This document shows, piece after piece, positions 32,991 through 49,212 of a stretch of 64,000 bases of DNA (position 1 is its first letter; each line of letters begins with the position of its first letter). Position numbers and translations under genes: made by a program. Source of the DNA: Methanolacinia petrolearia DSM 11571. Its GTDB lineage: Archaea; Halobacteriota; Methanomicrobia; Methanomicrobiales; Methanomicrobiaceae. Location of the stretch: contig NC_014507.1 of the NCBI RefSeq assembly GCF_000147875.1, positions 930,001 through 994,000 of the forward strand. The letters are read 5' to 3'. A model generated the notes under the pieces. That model ran no database searches. It was not told the origin of the DNA and saw only the letters and a list, made by a program, of their open reading frames with translations.

Positions 32991-33457
32991 CGGAATTTAC
33001 GCATATAAAGGACGACAAGGCATACATGGTCGACGTGACCGAAAAACCGGATGTGGGAAGGGTGGCGGTCGCCGCCGGAAAGATCTATCTCCGCGAGGAG
33101 ACGGTGGAGGCAATCCGCAGGGGAGATGTCGTGAAGGGCAATGTCCTTGCGACGGCAAGGGTCGCCGGGATAATGGCTGTGAAGCGGACATCCGATCTTA
33201 TACCTATGTGCCACCCGCTTCCCGTCGGGGGCGTGAACATCGATTTCAACGAGATCAAGGGCGAGCCCTGCATCGAGGCGATCTGCACTGTAAAGACCTA
33301 CGGGAAGACCGGGGTCGAGATGGAGGCCCTCACCGGTGTCTCGATCGCACTTCTTACTATATGGGACATGGTCAAGTCCGCCGAGAAGGACGAGGACGGT
33401 CAGTATCCGGAGACCGGGATCGAGGACATCCACGTCGTCGAGAAGAGGAAAGGGTGA
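32987..33457 (+). CDS. moaC: Cyclic pyranopterin monophosphate synthase MoaC
   Basis: Second step of molybdopterin/tungstopterin cofactor synthesis. The 156-residue protein begins [20 protein letters not shown] and contains [40 protein letters not shown], matching the MoaC active site. Methanogens need this cofactor for formylmethanofuran and formate dehydrogenases. Its last 42 bases plus six downstream recur 4.3 kb away (37736-37783), marking the edge of an insertion. Confidence 0.95.
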
Positions 33458-33463
33458 AGGATT
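33416..33463 (+). repeat. 48-bp direct repeat, left copy (moaC 3' end)
   Basis: Last 14 codons of moaC (from [10 protein letters not shown]) plus the bases after the stop. Identical to 37736-37783 except for one base (A at 33441, G at 37761). It bounds the left side of the 33464-37735 island. Sequence to the right, before the next gene, is AT-rich with no gene. Confidence 0.9.
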
Positions 33464-33564: not shown

Positions 33565-34524
33565 TTATAGATCCGAAGCCTCTTTCGCGAGAAATGCCCC
33601 TGCCGGAGTTACCCTTACCCTGACCTCAAGAACATTCTCCACTGCCGAACGTATCCTTTCTTCAATTTTTTCGGATATTTCATATGCTTCCCTTACAGTA
33701 ATATCCGGATCTGTCTCTATAGTAATATCAACAGAGATAGCGCCTCCAAAACTTCGGATCCGGTGGTCTGAAATGAATAATACTTCCGGCAATTCTTCTG
33801 TTATCTTTTCGGTCAAATTCATAACATGCATCGACGGGTTGGCATCGATAAGCTCTTTTGCTGCTCCGAGACATTCACCGACACTGTAGATGAAGAGACC
33901 CATCGCCACAAGGAGGGTCAAAATCGTGTGTATCATCAATAATGACGGGGCAACGACCTGAATTAATCCGCTTACTAAAATAATCGCCATACATGCAATA
34001 TCAGCTTTGATTACTACAGAATCCAGCAGAAGAATCTGACTGTTTAACCTTTTTCCAACACCCCGTATATACCGGTAGAGAAGACACAACAAACCGATTA
34101 CGATTAAGGAAAATATAACGGTAACAGGTCCGTAATCGGCATTCAGTTCAGGAGATGGGAAAAATAGCGTCTCAAAGAAGAAATAAAGTACATATAATGC
34201 AACTGCAAGGGTAAAAACAAACATTGTAAGCGTTTCAATTCGTTGGTACCCGAAATGCATTCGAAAATCTGCTTTGTGCCCGCCTAACAGGATCATGGCA
34301 AGCAGCACTGCATCGGGAATTACCCAGACCAGATTTCCAAATCCTTCAATATAAAAGAGTTCATTCTCTGATAAATGCCATAGAATAATCTCCGATATAC
34401 CAATAAAAACCGTCAGTGACATCGAGAGAATGAATGCTTTTGAAGCGGTGATGGACCTGGGATCAGAGCTACTGAACAAGGCAGGGCGTTTTTTAGTTTT
34501 TTGTCTTAAATCCCCTTTAAACAT
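33565..34524 (-). CDS. Cation diffusion facilitator (CDF)-like transporter
   Basis: 319 residues with six predicted membrane helices and a C-terminal cytoplasmic domain (TEKITEELPEVLFISDHRIRSFGGAISVDITIETDPDITVREAYEISEKIEERI) typical of CDF metal exporters. Membrane positions HKADFRMHFGYQRIE (helix 2 region) and LLLDSVVIKADIACM (helix 5, D..IKAD) correspond to the canonical metal-site helices, but the usual HxxxD is D-x(6)-D here, so substrate is uncertain. It is monocistronic, with a palindromic operator-like site about 50 bp upstream. Composition is AT-rich compared with moaC. Confidence 0.8.
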   Translation of the reverse strand: MFKGDLRQKTKKRPALFSSSDPRSITASKAFILSMSLTVFIGISEIILWHLSENELFYIEGFGNLVWVIPDAVLLAMILLGGHKADFRMHFGYQRIETLTMFVFTLAVALYVLYFFFETLFFPSPELNADYGPVTVIFSLIVIGLLCLLYRYIRGVGKRLNSQILLLDSVVIKADIACMAIILVSGLIQVVAPSLLMIHTILTLLVAMGLFIYSVGECLGAAKELIDANPSMHVMNLTEKITEELPEVLFISDHRIRSFGGAISVDITIETDPDITVREAYEISEKIEERIRSAVENVLEVRVRVTPAGAFLAKEASDL

Positions 34525-34572
34525 ATATTCTGTCCCTTCAGACTAGAGTGGCGAACGTTTCTTTTTGAAATA

Positions 34573-34599
34573 ATATTATACGCAATATGCGTATAATAT
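34573..34599. promoter_or_regulatory. Palindromic operator upstream of the CDF-like gene
   Basis: Perfect 12-bp arms ATATTATACGCA and TGCGTATAATAT are separated by three bases, overlapping the expected TATA region of the leftward CDF-like gene (start 34524). Outer half-sites GAACGTTT (34553-34560) and AAACGTTC (34617-34624) surround it symmetrically. The site looks like a dimeric repressor target. A metal-sensor regulator is an inference from the neighbouring transporter. Confidence 0.55.
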
Positions 34600-34710
34600 C
34601 GTTTAATATCAAAAATAAACGTTCTGCACTATATTGAGAAAACCAAACATTCTTAGAAGTTTGGTTTTTGACTCTAATTTATTCCTTTTAGATTTTCAGA
34701 CGTATTTAGT

Positions 34711-35319
34711 TTAGGTAATTCCCTGCTGAGACTTTTTCTTAAGTGCAATTGATTCTACGAGTTGGTATGTACATTCCTCGGCAATAAGAGCAAAGAAAAA
34801 AACCCATGGAACAGCTATAGTTAAAATCAGAAATATAATCCCCACATAGGAGGTAACACGATACAAAAACCAGTGGGTACGGAGATTTCTGATTATTTCC
34901 TTAAAACCTGATCTTTTTTTATCTAAATATGGGATTTTCATTTCCTTATCGACCTGGTCGTTTCCAATTTCATCTATTCCGGAACAGAGGAGTATTACAA
35001 GAAGTGTCAGGATGGAAACTGAAAGTAATCCCGATACACCAAGGATAACCACGGTTGTAAAAATTATTGCCACAATTAGAGAAAAAGCAAAGTTGTCTAT
35101 TTTTCCGCATAGAATCACGGAAATTACGATTCCAAGACAAATCCCCGCAGCATATTGATTTAGTGCAATAATTACGCAATATACTATGCCTGTTACAGGT
35201 GAAAGGGCTAGTGCAAATTTCCGGTTAAATACTTTATCGTCATAACTTGCATCGATATATTTCAGACTGGCACCAATAAAGCCAAAAAGGATAATAATGG
35301 CAATATCCTCACCTAACAT
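34711..35319 (-). CDS. Orphan polytopic membrane protein
   Basis: 202 residues, not recognised. About five to six hydrophobic helices: 5-20, 36-56, 56-75, 78-110 (two), and 150-182. A soluble loop follows helix 4 (IDEIGNDQVDKEMKIPYLDKKRSGFKEIIRNLRTH). It ends in KKKSQQGIT. Strongly AT-rich. It lies between the transporter and the partner-switching genes with no close spacing to either, so it is probably its own unit. Confidence 0.6.
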   Translation of the reverse strand: MLGEDIAIIILFGFIGASLKYIDASYDDKVFNRKFALALSPVTGIVYCVIIALNQYAAGICLGIVISVILCGKIDNFAFSLIVAIIFTTVVILGVSGLLSVSILTLLVILLCSGIDEIGNDQVDKEMKIPYLDKKRSGFKEIIRNLRTHWFLYRVTSYVGIIFLILTIAVPWVFFFALIAEECTYQLVESIALKKKSQQGIT

Positions 35320-35477: not shown

Positions 35478-35906
35478 TCAGCCGTCTTCAATTTTTTTAA
35501 TAAGGTACAGGACGTTCTCGTCTCCTTCTCTATTATAAGATATAGAATCGGAAAACTTCCGTACGAGCATTATTCCAAGTCCGCCGATCTTCCTCTCTTC
35601 CGCAGAAAGCCCTGTATCGGGAACCGGTGCGTCTTTTAAGGGATTGAATTCATTGCCGTTGTCCCTGAACTCTATCTCCAGGAGATCATCCTTTAATTCA
35701 CACCTGAACGAAAAAGACCTGTGAGGGGCTGCATGCCCGATAATATTCTCCGAGACCTCCTCAAGCATTATTTCAGCGCTCATGCGGACTTTGGCAGGCA
35801 CGGCGAGAGACCTGAGGTATCCGGAAAATGCCTCCGACAAATGCGGCAGTTTTTCCTTCGTCAATGAATCCGTATCATAACAAAATATTTCACTCATTAT
35901 ATCCAC
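35478..35906 (-). CDS. Anti-sigma-factor-type histidine-kinase-like ATPase (RsbW/SpoIIAB-like)
   Basis: 142 residues of the HATPase_c fold as in RsbW: N-box EIMLEEVSENIIGHA, G1 EFRDNGNEFNP, G2 GGLGIMLVRKFSD. In bacteria such kinases phosphorylate a STAS antagonist and hold a sigma factor. Archaea have no sigma factor, so the target must be different. It is the third gene of a leftward set: STAS (37333-37680), SpoIIE phosphatase (35958-37319), ATPase. Confidence 0.85.
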   Translation of the reverse strand: MDIMSEIFCYDTDSLTKEKLPHLSEAFSGYLRSLAVPAKVRMSAEIMLEEVSENIIGHAAPHRSFSFRCELKDDLLEIEFRDNGNEFNPLKDAPVPDTGLSAEERKIGGLGIMLVRKFSDSISYNREGDENVLYLIKKIEDG

Positions 35907-35957
35907 CTGCTGCGCCGACAGGCTACAGGCTACCTCTTACAGCCGTGCCTCCGGACG

Positions 35958-37319
35958 TTATAACACCTTCAGGATTATAAGTGTAATATCGTCAAATTGA
36001 GGATTTCCTGCTGAATGAAGGTCTACTGATTCGATTATCAGGTCGGCAATTTCGTCCGGTTTTTTGTGCCTGTTGTTCATAATAATCTCTTTGAGTCTTT
36101 CCTCTCCGAACTCTTCCTCCCTGGTGTTAATCGATTCGGTAATGCCGTCGGTAAAGAAGACTATAAGATCGCCGGAGGAGGTGGAGATCTCCCCTGCCCC
36201 GTATTTATTGTCCTCCAGCACCCCGAGAGCCATACCTGTGGGGTTGAGGGGCAGAAAATCATTATCCGAAGCTCCAAGATACAGGGGCGGGCAGTGTCCG
36301 GCATTTGCATATTCGATCTTTTTAGACGAATGGTTGAGGCGCATGTAAAATAATGTAACAAACATTCCGGCCCCTGATTCGGCCAGGATCAGGTTGTTTG
36401 CATCTTCCATCGCCTTTTTTATCGACCTGTTCCAGCCTGCGCTTGCATTCATAAGAGTCTTCGAGAGAACCATGAAAAGTGCGGCAGGCACGCCTTTCCC
36501 TGAAACGTCGGCGATAACTATTCCGGTTTCTTCACCGCCGCAATCGATAAAATCATAAAAATCCCCGCCGACCTCCTTTGCAGGTCTGCTTAAGGCAAAG
36601 ATGCTGAACCCCGGTATCTCGGGGATAGCCCCCGGAAGAAAGTTGGTTTGGATTTCGGAGGCGATCTCCAGTTCCGCCCTGTTCTTTGCAACCTCTTTCT
36701 CATATTGATCCCTCTCATTTATCGTTTTCTTCTCTTCGAGAAGATTCCTGAAGAGATATGAAAAGATAAGAATCCCTATGACATTTGCAATTATCATGGG
36801 AATCGCCGCAAAACTGACAATTTCAAAGGCAATTTCAGGAGGTTTCACCATAGCGAGAATTATCAGCATCTGGAGTGATTCCATGGCTACCGCAAATACG
36901 ACGGCGATTTTTACCCCTGCAAAATCTTTTTTCAGCAGAAGATAGACCAGACCGGCAAACAGGCCGCTCAAAACTGCTGCAATACTACACGGGAGGCTGG
37001 TTGTACCACCCGTTGCAGATATCAGGGCTGCGCCGATCAGTCCGGCACCGATGCCGACATAGGGGCCGCAGAAAAGCCCTCCTAACATAGGGCCTATGTC
37101 CCCGACATTCAGAGGCTCGCCGAGGATGCTGAGACCTCCGAGAGTACCGTAAATCGAGAGAAGACCGAAGAAGACGATAAGGACGGCCTGGTTTTTCCAG
37201 GTGTATCTTCTCTTGACGGCATCCGAAAACCAGCGTGAGCGTATAACAAAGATGGAGAAGACTATAATTACGCAGATCAGTTCAAAAAGGTCTATGAAAA
37301 AGTCCAGTTCCACGCTCAT
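35958..37319 (-). CDS. Membrane sensor phosphatase: 5TM LytS-type sensor plus SpoIIE PP2C domain
   Basis: 453 residues. The N-terminal half has a 5TM receptor of LytS type (about 1-200: NVGDIGPMLGGLFCGPYVGIGAGLIG, GGTTSLPCSIAAVLSGLFAG), then a linker helix, then a SpoIIE-type PP2C phosphatase (about 225-450: EIQTNFLPG, GGDFYDFID, VIADVSGKGVPAALFM, LIVFFTDGITESIN, DDITLIILKV) with the metal-binding Asp residues. It would dephosphorylate the STAS protein encoded 13 bp upstream in response to an extracellular ligand. Confidence 0.88.
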   Translation of the reverse strand: MSVELDFFIDLFELICVIIVFSIFVIRSRWFSDAVKRRYTWKNQAVLIVFFGLLSIYGTLGGLSILGEPLNVGDIGPMLGGLFCGPYVGIGAGLIGAALISATGGTTSLPCSIAAVLSGLFAGLVYLLLKKDFAGVKIAVVFAVAMESLQMLIILAMVKPPEIAFEIVSFAAIPMIIANVIGILIFSYLFRNLLEEKKTINERDQYEKEVAKNRAELEIASEIQTNFLPGAIPEIPGFSIFALSRPAKEVGGDFYDFIDCGGEETGIVIADVSGKGVPAALFMVLSKTLMNASAGWNRSIKKAMEDANNLILAESGAGMFVTLFYMRLNHSSKKIEYANAGHCPPLYLGASDNDFLPLNPTGMALGVLEDNKYGAGEISTSSGDLIVFFTDGITESINTREEEFGEERLKEIIMNNRHKKPDEIADLIIESVDLHSAGNPQFDDITLIILKVL

Positions 37320-37332
37320 ATGTCAAAGTATT

Positions 37333-37680
37333 TTATTTTATAAAATCCGAAAGTGCTTCATTCTCCGAGCCATGAATATCAAAAATACTGTTAAATCCGG
37401 ATACAACGAATACATCCATGACGAAAGGTTTTAATCCGGATAATTTTATGTCTCCTCCTGACAGCCTTACTGTTTTTAATGCAGAAAGCATTACTCTAAG
37501 CCCCGAGCTGCTGATATAATCCACTTCATTCATATTGATTATTATCTTCCCAGAACCTGATTTGATGGCTTCTTTCAGATTTTCATCGAGAATACTGGAG
37601 TTTTGTGCATCGATCCGGCCTTTGACCATAATAATTTCAGCCGGTTCGGATTTTTTCCGGTTAATCTCCATGATATTCAT
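37333..37680 (-). CDS. STAS-domain anti-sigma-factor antagonist
   Basis: 115 residues, first gene of the set, starting MNIMEINRKKSEPAEII. The STAS core is KGRIDAQNSSILDENLKEAIKSGSGKIIINMNEVDYISSSGLRVMLSALKTV, with the phospho-acceptor Ser in the DYISSSGLRVML motif. It should be switched by the ATPase (kinase) and the SpoIIE phosphatase encoded next to it. No promoter motif was securely identified in 37684-37735. Confidence 0.88.
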   Translation of the reverse strand: MNIMEINRKKSEPAEIIMVKGRIDAQNSSILDENLKEAIKSGSGKIIINMNEVDYISSSGLRVMLSALKTVRLSGGDIKLSGLKPFVMDVFVVSGFNSIFDIHGSENEALSDFIK

Positions 37681-37735
37681 TTTCTAATTGGAACAGATAA
37701 TATCTTCCTGTTTTTTCAGTCCGGTATCCGGGACA

Positions 37736-37783
37736 GGGATCGAGGACATCCACGTCGTCGGGAAGAGGAAAGGGTGAAGGATT
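37736..37783 (+). repeat. 48-bp direct repeat, right copy (moaC fragment)
   Basis: A copy of the moaC 3' end, 47 of 48 bases identical to 33416-33463. It is not part of a gene: no start codon precedes it in frame. It closes the island on the right. The gap 37681-38068 also contains the R1-like GGCCGCCGCCCCGAAGGGCG hairpin (37819-37845) and then the L15e promoter (TTTTAATACC near 37957). Confidence 0.9.
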
Positions 37784-43542: not shown

Positions 43543-43554
43543 ATTTGTTGTTTG

Positions 43555-43627
43555 CCCAGTTAGTGTAGTGGCCTATCATGCAGCCCTGTCACGGCTGCGA
43601 CACGGATTCGAATTCCGTACTGGGCGT
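43555..43627 (+). tRNA. tRNA-Asp (GTC), copy 1
   Basis: Acceptor GCCCAGT pairs with ACTGGGC, with discriminator G. The anticodon stem GCAGCC/GGCTGC encloses loop CTGTCAC, anticodon GTC. T arm GGATTCGAATTCC. It lies 12 bp after tRNA-Tyr and is probably co-transcribed. An identical second gene is at 49065-49137. Confidence 0.95.
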
Positions 43628-43657
43628 TTCTTGTTTTTAGATTCTTTAATTGTTTAG

Positions 43658-48909: not shown

Positions 48910-49064
48910 TTTTCCACGACAAAGAATCGGAGGAAGAGAATATAATACATTATGCTGCGTTCCGGGAGGACTTCTCATGCAATATTGCAGATTCCTGCTG
49001 CTGCCAAATAAAACCCTTAAATAACCAAAAAGATCAATATGTTATGCTGATTACAGCACGCTTT

Positions 49065-49137
49065 GCCCAGTTAGTGTAGTGGCCTATCATGCAGCCCTGT
49101 CACGGCTGCGACACGGATTCGAATTCCGTACTGGGCG
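49065..49137 (+). tRNA. tRNA-Asp (GTC), copy 2
   Basis: Identical in all 73 bases to the gene at 43555-43627, with three further shared bases on each side (TTT). It has its own upstream AT-rich region and T-rich end (GTTTTTGTTTTC). Two identical genes 5.4 kb apart may be a simple duplication or the two ends of an integrated element. Confidence 0.95.
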
Positions 49138-49212
49138 TTTTTGTTTTCTTTTTTGTTAATTCATAAAATCAAATAGAAAAATTCATCGATCATAGAATCG
49201 TATCGCGATACA

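Follow-up and report, generated by a model that had tools for sequence, protein, structure and literature searches.

We analysed a window of 64,000 nucleotides from Methanolacinia petrolearia DSM 11571 (NC_014507.1, positions 930,001 to 994,000), numbering positions from its first letter. Five genes on one strand, in the order STAS antagonist (STAS), phosphatase (PP), kinase (KIN), P202 and CDF-like protein (CDF), occupy a 4.3-kb island that sits after moaC. P202, as the fourth gene of the operon, the lateral mobility of the unit and the duplication of the moaC 3′ end at both flanks of the island had been overlooked earlier. The features are as follows.

33412 to 33463, plus strand: left copy of a 52-nt direct repeat, which comprises the moaC 3′ end and 7 further nt, found by repeat search, with 96% identity between the copies; single copy in the sister genome G111.
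33565 to 34524, minus strand: CDF-like membrane protein of 319 aa (Cation_efflux, PF01545, 8e-13; ZT_dimer, PF16916, 2.3e-11), the aligned site-A ligands probably mostly lost.
34543 to 34673, no strand assigned: MITE-like insertion of 131 bp with a palindrome inside (34574 to 34598), absent from G112, the second species that carries the island.
34711 to 35319, minus strand: P202, a membrane protein of 202 aa with homologues in other genomes; its archaeal family is uncharacterised.
35478 to 35906, minus strand: KIN, an RsbW/SpoIIAB-like HATPase kinase (HATPase_c_2, PF13581, 1.7e-17; invariant N-box and G-box residues; fold match).
35958 to 37319, minus strand: PP, 453 aa, a 5TM-5TMR_LYT sensor with a SpoIIE/PP2C phosphatase (PF07694, 6.1e-38; PF07228, 1.2e-48; metal-site Asp kept).
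37333 to 37680, minus strand: STAS antagonist, 115 aa, with a YISSSG phospho-acceptor motif (PF01740, 3.7e-19; TIGR00377 over cut-off; PDB relatives TM1442, RsbV and SpoIIAA).
37732 to 37783, plus strand: right copy of the moaC 3′-end direct repeat, marking the island boundary (repeat search; comparison with G111).

The domain matches place STAS, a 5TM-SpoIIE phosphatase and an RsbW-like kinase in one run at 35478–37680, as the first-pass annotation had read it, and the PF07694 match in PP bears out its description of the phosphatase as membrane-bound and LytS-type. STAS scored 78.4 bits against the NCBIfam model ant_ant_sig (TIGR00377, cut-off 53.45), and KIN exceeded the PF13581 cut-off but fell below the NCBIfam equivalog cut-offs for RsbW proper and SpoIIAB proper. 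A sequence search of the PDB returned no match for KIN; a fold search was used in its place, with a structure model of mean pLDDT 88.7, and gave SpoIIAB and RsbW as the top matches. KIN likely starts at the ATG at 35897, instead of the listed GTG; on that start the PP–KIN gap is 60 nt, and STAS and PP are separated by 13 nt.

Residues E47, N51, D79, G105, G106 and G108 of KIN were invariant across 24 aligned homologues, and the SpoIIE metal-site Asp positions were 96–98% conserved. The phospho-acceptor of STAS, the middle Ser of YISSSG, was invariant in 57 of 57 sequences and corresponds in the alignment to the Ser in the YMDSTG motif of RsbV, which we take to be the RsbV phosphosite. With all three components found and no catalytic residue of KIN, STAS or PP missing after alignment, the module is complete, as had been claimed, and the trio is very probably a real partner switch; phosphotransfer, switch direction, signal and client we infer. 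Profile searches of the genome identified a single STAS gene, PP as the only strong SpoIIE match, and KIN as the top HATPase_c_2 match by a wide margin over the rest. A second SpoIIE match, considered as a paralogous module, was rejected as an ordinary PP2C.

The trio belongs to the same protein families as RsbU/RsbV/RsbW and SpoIIE/SpoIIAA/SpoIIAB of Bacillus, with the same catalytic residues and the same kinase fold. The output of the Bacillus switches is a sigma factor, whereas the archaeal PP carries a 5TM-LYT sensor and the client proposed here is a membrane protein. Pfam annotation of the island genes revealed no sigma factor and, to our knowledge, sigma factors are absent from archaea. 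The literature likewise describes archaea as lacking them (PMC2686161), so that the usual sigma-factor output cannot apply, a point the earlier reading had made correctly.

Its presentation of a complete module in an archaeon as a novel surprise does not hold. In 2009, Anderson et al. reported a SpoIIAA/SpoIIAB/SpoIIE trio in Methanomicrobiales, target unknown (Memar_2467-2469 and Mlab_1450-1452; PMC2686161), and the M. marisnigri genome paper restates the point (PMC3035220); the headline claim had therefore been published. That trio has the same three components and comes from the same order of archaea, but the module described here is joined by P202 and a CDF-like gene in a mobile five-gene island. 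Moreover, clusters of STAS, SpoIIE and KIN genes also occur in other families of this phylum (loci L137, L138, L140, L142 and L151 among them), and the published statement that the trio proteins occur nowhere outside the order thus needs amending. New here are the five-gene operon on a lateral island, the recurring CDF–KIN link, the probable loss of most site-A ligands in CDF, and the permease-tail and MBL-fold neighbours elsewhere. These bear on a question that has stood since 2009, namely what the archaeal anti-sigma and anti-anti-sigma proteins regulate.

P202 matched neither a Pfam nor an NCBIfam family, and its structure model reached a mean pLDDT of 47.9. The G112 island encodes a homologue at 84%. 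Across genome collections that are a sample and include MAGs that may be incomplete, 28 of 393 genomes gave a match to the P202 family. Many belong to family f10, in which P202 is widespread and lies apart from the trio.

In CDF, the Cation_efflux and ZT_dimer matches both exceed their cut-offs, and the protein falls 3.7 bits short of the CDF superfamily cut-off (TIGR01297). At the positions of YiiP site A (TM2 and TM5), a two-step mapping at low identity places G, W, V and D. CDF has likely lost most of the ligands that canonically bind metal at the transport site, a judgement kept short of certainty because of the nature of that mapping. The loss extends to the CDF proteins of G112 and G120, whereas in the f10 proteins TM2 retains H and D, and TM5 an HHRS(D/A) motif. 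With most site-A ligands apparently lost, CDF should not be taken at face value as an exporter of metals, and the stress function that the first-pass annotation suggested is conjectural. If the loss is right, CDF would either transport by a different mechanism or be a sensor-like protein built on the CDF fold.

The first-pass annotation had tied the island's CDF-like gene to the module, and this connection gained support: the five genes are tightly packed in one operon in G112, and CDF lies directly 3′ of KIN in two f10 genomes, G292, with a 2-nt gap between the matched stretches of the two genes, and likewise G470. As G292 and G470 represent one family, the link is found in only two lineages. 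The subfamily to which the island CDF belongs is itself rare, with members in 6 of 393 genomes at E<=1e-20. In G120, CDF is paired with a P202 homologue, apart from the trio, and CDF stands beside the trio in only 4 of 57 archaeal SpoIIE loci, which together argue that CDF is not a general client. At the G470 locus, an acetolactate-synthase-like ThDP enzyme, recognised by eye (L157, 5986–7707), lies between STAS and a Cache/HAMP-type SpoIIE, which is followed by KIN and then CDF; the sensor domain is swapped and the remaining module kept.

In M. petrolearia, the MITE-like insertion lies between the P202 and CDF genes. Shuffled sequences predict no chance matches to its palindrome, which we considered as a CDF operator; this was rejected, and a MITE-like repeat is the likelier explanation, because the palindrome lies inside the 131-bp insertion that G112 lacks.

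We then compared the island and its surroundings between genomes. The close sister G111 is 93–96% identical in the flanks and has one copy of the repeat and no island. In genomes of genus g7, a moaC-like 3′ end also lies within a few hundred nucleotides of L15e, suggesting that the island-free state is probably ancestral. At the site that the island occupies in M. petrolearia, the moaC–L15e gap of G111 (L131) holds two small ORFs that by eye resemble HicB and HicA. The 3′ end of moaC is a possible hot spot for insertion.

Nei–Gojobori estimates between this genome and G112 gave dS values of 0.17–0.35 for all five island genes, far below those of the flanking genes (0.63 to saturated), indicating recent lateral sharing of the island. 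All five reading frames are intact, and dN (0.040–0.083) is well below dS (0.169–0.354), which points to purifying selection on the island genes. Two g8 genomes each carry an orphan STAS gene (L132, 10050–10397; L133, 10316–10663) that is 88–89% identical to the island STAS, closer than the STAS of their own trios (65–66%); this also points to mobility, the orphans being probable island remnants or second inputs. The G+C content of the island is 41.9%, against 53–57% in the flanks, which is weak evidence by itself given the genome mean of 47.4% (PMC3035365).

ORF and Pfam annotation found no integrase or recombinase gene within the island. CIME-type elements are recombinase-less, att-flanked mobile islands. 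The island resembles them in its sequence features and could belong to this type: it is short and bounded by direct repeats of the 3′ end of a gene, lacks an integrase of its own and occupies the same site in two species, a site that is free of it in a third.

To see what accompanies archaeal trios more widely, we compared the neighbourhoods of 57 SpoIIE genes, picked for strong SpoIIE matches and lying in loci that differ in length. Both STAS and KIN adjoin PP in 34 of the 45 loci of 5TM type. No fourth gene was universal across the 57 neighbourhoods, and several neighbours recurred in unrelated families: an MBL-fold protein (13 loci), a xanthine/uracil permease (8) and CDF (the 4 loci above), as well as a STAS protein with an extension of about 320 aa (8) and a CxxCxxCC protein (8).

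In many loci, the MBL-fold gene either overlaps the STAS gene or lies immediately next to it; its product is possibly a second client or regulator. At L089 (10697–12752), L100 (6921–8976), L102 (6822–8874) and L101 (10886–12938), the overlapping gene encodes an MBL-fold protein with an unannotated C-terminal region. The idea that the C terminus is a HATPase found no support (hhalign probability 1.9%).

In several families, a permease with an RsbW-like C-terminal domain adjoins STAS, SpoIIE and KIN (L091, 9563–11266; also L103, L137, L138, L139, L140 and L156). Its tail matches the KIN profile with an hhalign probability of 92.6% (E 4.5e-7, a profile–profile value without database-size correction). 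Residues equivalent to KIN N51 and D79 are missing, and the tail therefore looks like a degenerate RsbW-like domain.

Gene fusions and other companions were also observed. SpoIIE and KIN profiles match a single long frame in L143 (7191–10586) and L142 (9203–11188), and in L144 and L170 the KIN match covers one part of a frame some 800 aa long. Trios of genera g5, g7 and g8 lie near a VWA protein, a PP2C and a protein kinase, resembling a TerY-P triad (L086, 3505–5022; L087, 12364–16000), and near a divergent CxxCxxCC protein. Among bacterial relatives were two SpoIIE proteins of Pseudodesulfovibrio, at 37% across the phosphatase domain; the surrounding DNA examined contained no STAS or KIN gene.

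By homology with characterised modules, the switch might work as follows. The 5TM-LYT domain of PP would sense a signal at the membrane and activate the cytoplasmic SpoIIE phosphatase, which would remove the phosphate from the conserved Ser of STAS. Dephosphorylated STAS would bind KIN, freeing the client that KIN holds; once the signal is off, KIN and ATP would re-phosphorylate STAS and KIN would recapture the client. The client would be a membrane protein of the same operon, the P202/CDF-like pair, and in other archaea the RsbW-tailed permease or the MBL-fold protein may take that role.

Taken as a whole, the reading that we prefer is a functional, laterally mobile partner-switching operon with a non-sigma output and the co-encoded P202/CDF pair as client; we hold it tentatively, at a little under even confidence. 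Two observations favour the pair: the unit is mobile and complete in itself, and genes of transporter type turn up repeatedly next to the module. A local client is favoured by the presence of the whole unit in two species as one island, by a CDF that is rare yet follows KIN in f10, and by the tailed permease beside the trio; the wide occurrence of P202 in f10 apart from the trio and the degenerate site A of CDF speak against it. A client unlinked to the operon, or direct action of STAS on a target, comes close to a P202/CDF client in likelihood. That the partner switch has its client encoded elsewhere, be it a transcription factor, an enzyme or another regulator, with P202 and CDF as passengers of the island, is doubtful yet a serious possibility. 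It would fit the absence of CDF and P202 from most archaeal trios, the differing neighbours between families and the independent P202–CDF pair of G120; it fits less well with the transfer of the unit between species as a single island, which speaks for a self-contained system, and with a CDF–KIN adjacency seen again in a second family. A TFB variant, the client floated in the first-pass annotation, drew no support, as no TFB or other transcription factor was among the recurring annotated neighbours in the loci examined. The RsbW-tailed permease was rejected as a client in M. petrolearia itself, where the only two permeases are plain, both without the tail.

STAS could instead be the output itself, with the dephosphorylated form acting on a target and KIN only setting the phosphorylation state. 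There are bacterial precedents, proposed for SypA (PMC8256260) and shown for SiaC (PMC8457831); the MBL-fold genes that overlap or abut STAS and the orphan STAS genes of the two g8 genomes point the same way. We regard this as unlikely, since no STAS-binding target is identifiable at the locus and the genome has one STAS gene. Decay of the island into a mobile remnant whose module no longer signals is very improbable: its lateral movement, its absence from the sister G111 and the repeat-like insertion that breaks the P202–CDF spacing in this strain are set against five intact frames, dN values below dS and retained catalytic residues. Beyond the preferred P202/CDF client, archaeal partner switching might in general control transporter-type membrane proteins directly (here P202 and a CDF-like protein without most of its transport-site ligands, the RsbW-tailed permease elsewhere), with the whole control unit spreading between methanogens as a recombinase-less island, a broader proposal to which we give rather low credence.

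Outputs other than a known sigma factor have been described in bacteria for BtrU/V/W (through BtrV), SypE/SypA and RbaV (PMC8256260) and for SiaABCD through SiaC–SiaD (PMC8457831). Like the system proposed here, these combine a STAS-type protein with a kinase and a phosphatase; they differ in being bacterial and having other clients, and PMC8457831 and PMC8256260 describe no archaeal member. The recurring fourth genes (CDF/P202, the RsbW-tailed permease, the MBL-fold protein and the STAS protein with a long extension) offer a shortlist of testable clients, and the mobile operon of five genes is compact and could be introduced into a tractable methanogen for testing.

Elsewhere in the window, tRNA-Asp is duplicated within an 86-nt repeat (43551–43636 and 49062–49147, 97% identical). 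The intervening 5.5 kb or so, with its several dispersed repeats and radical-SAM-like gene, is possibly another integrated or duplicated segment.
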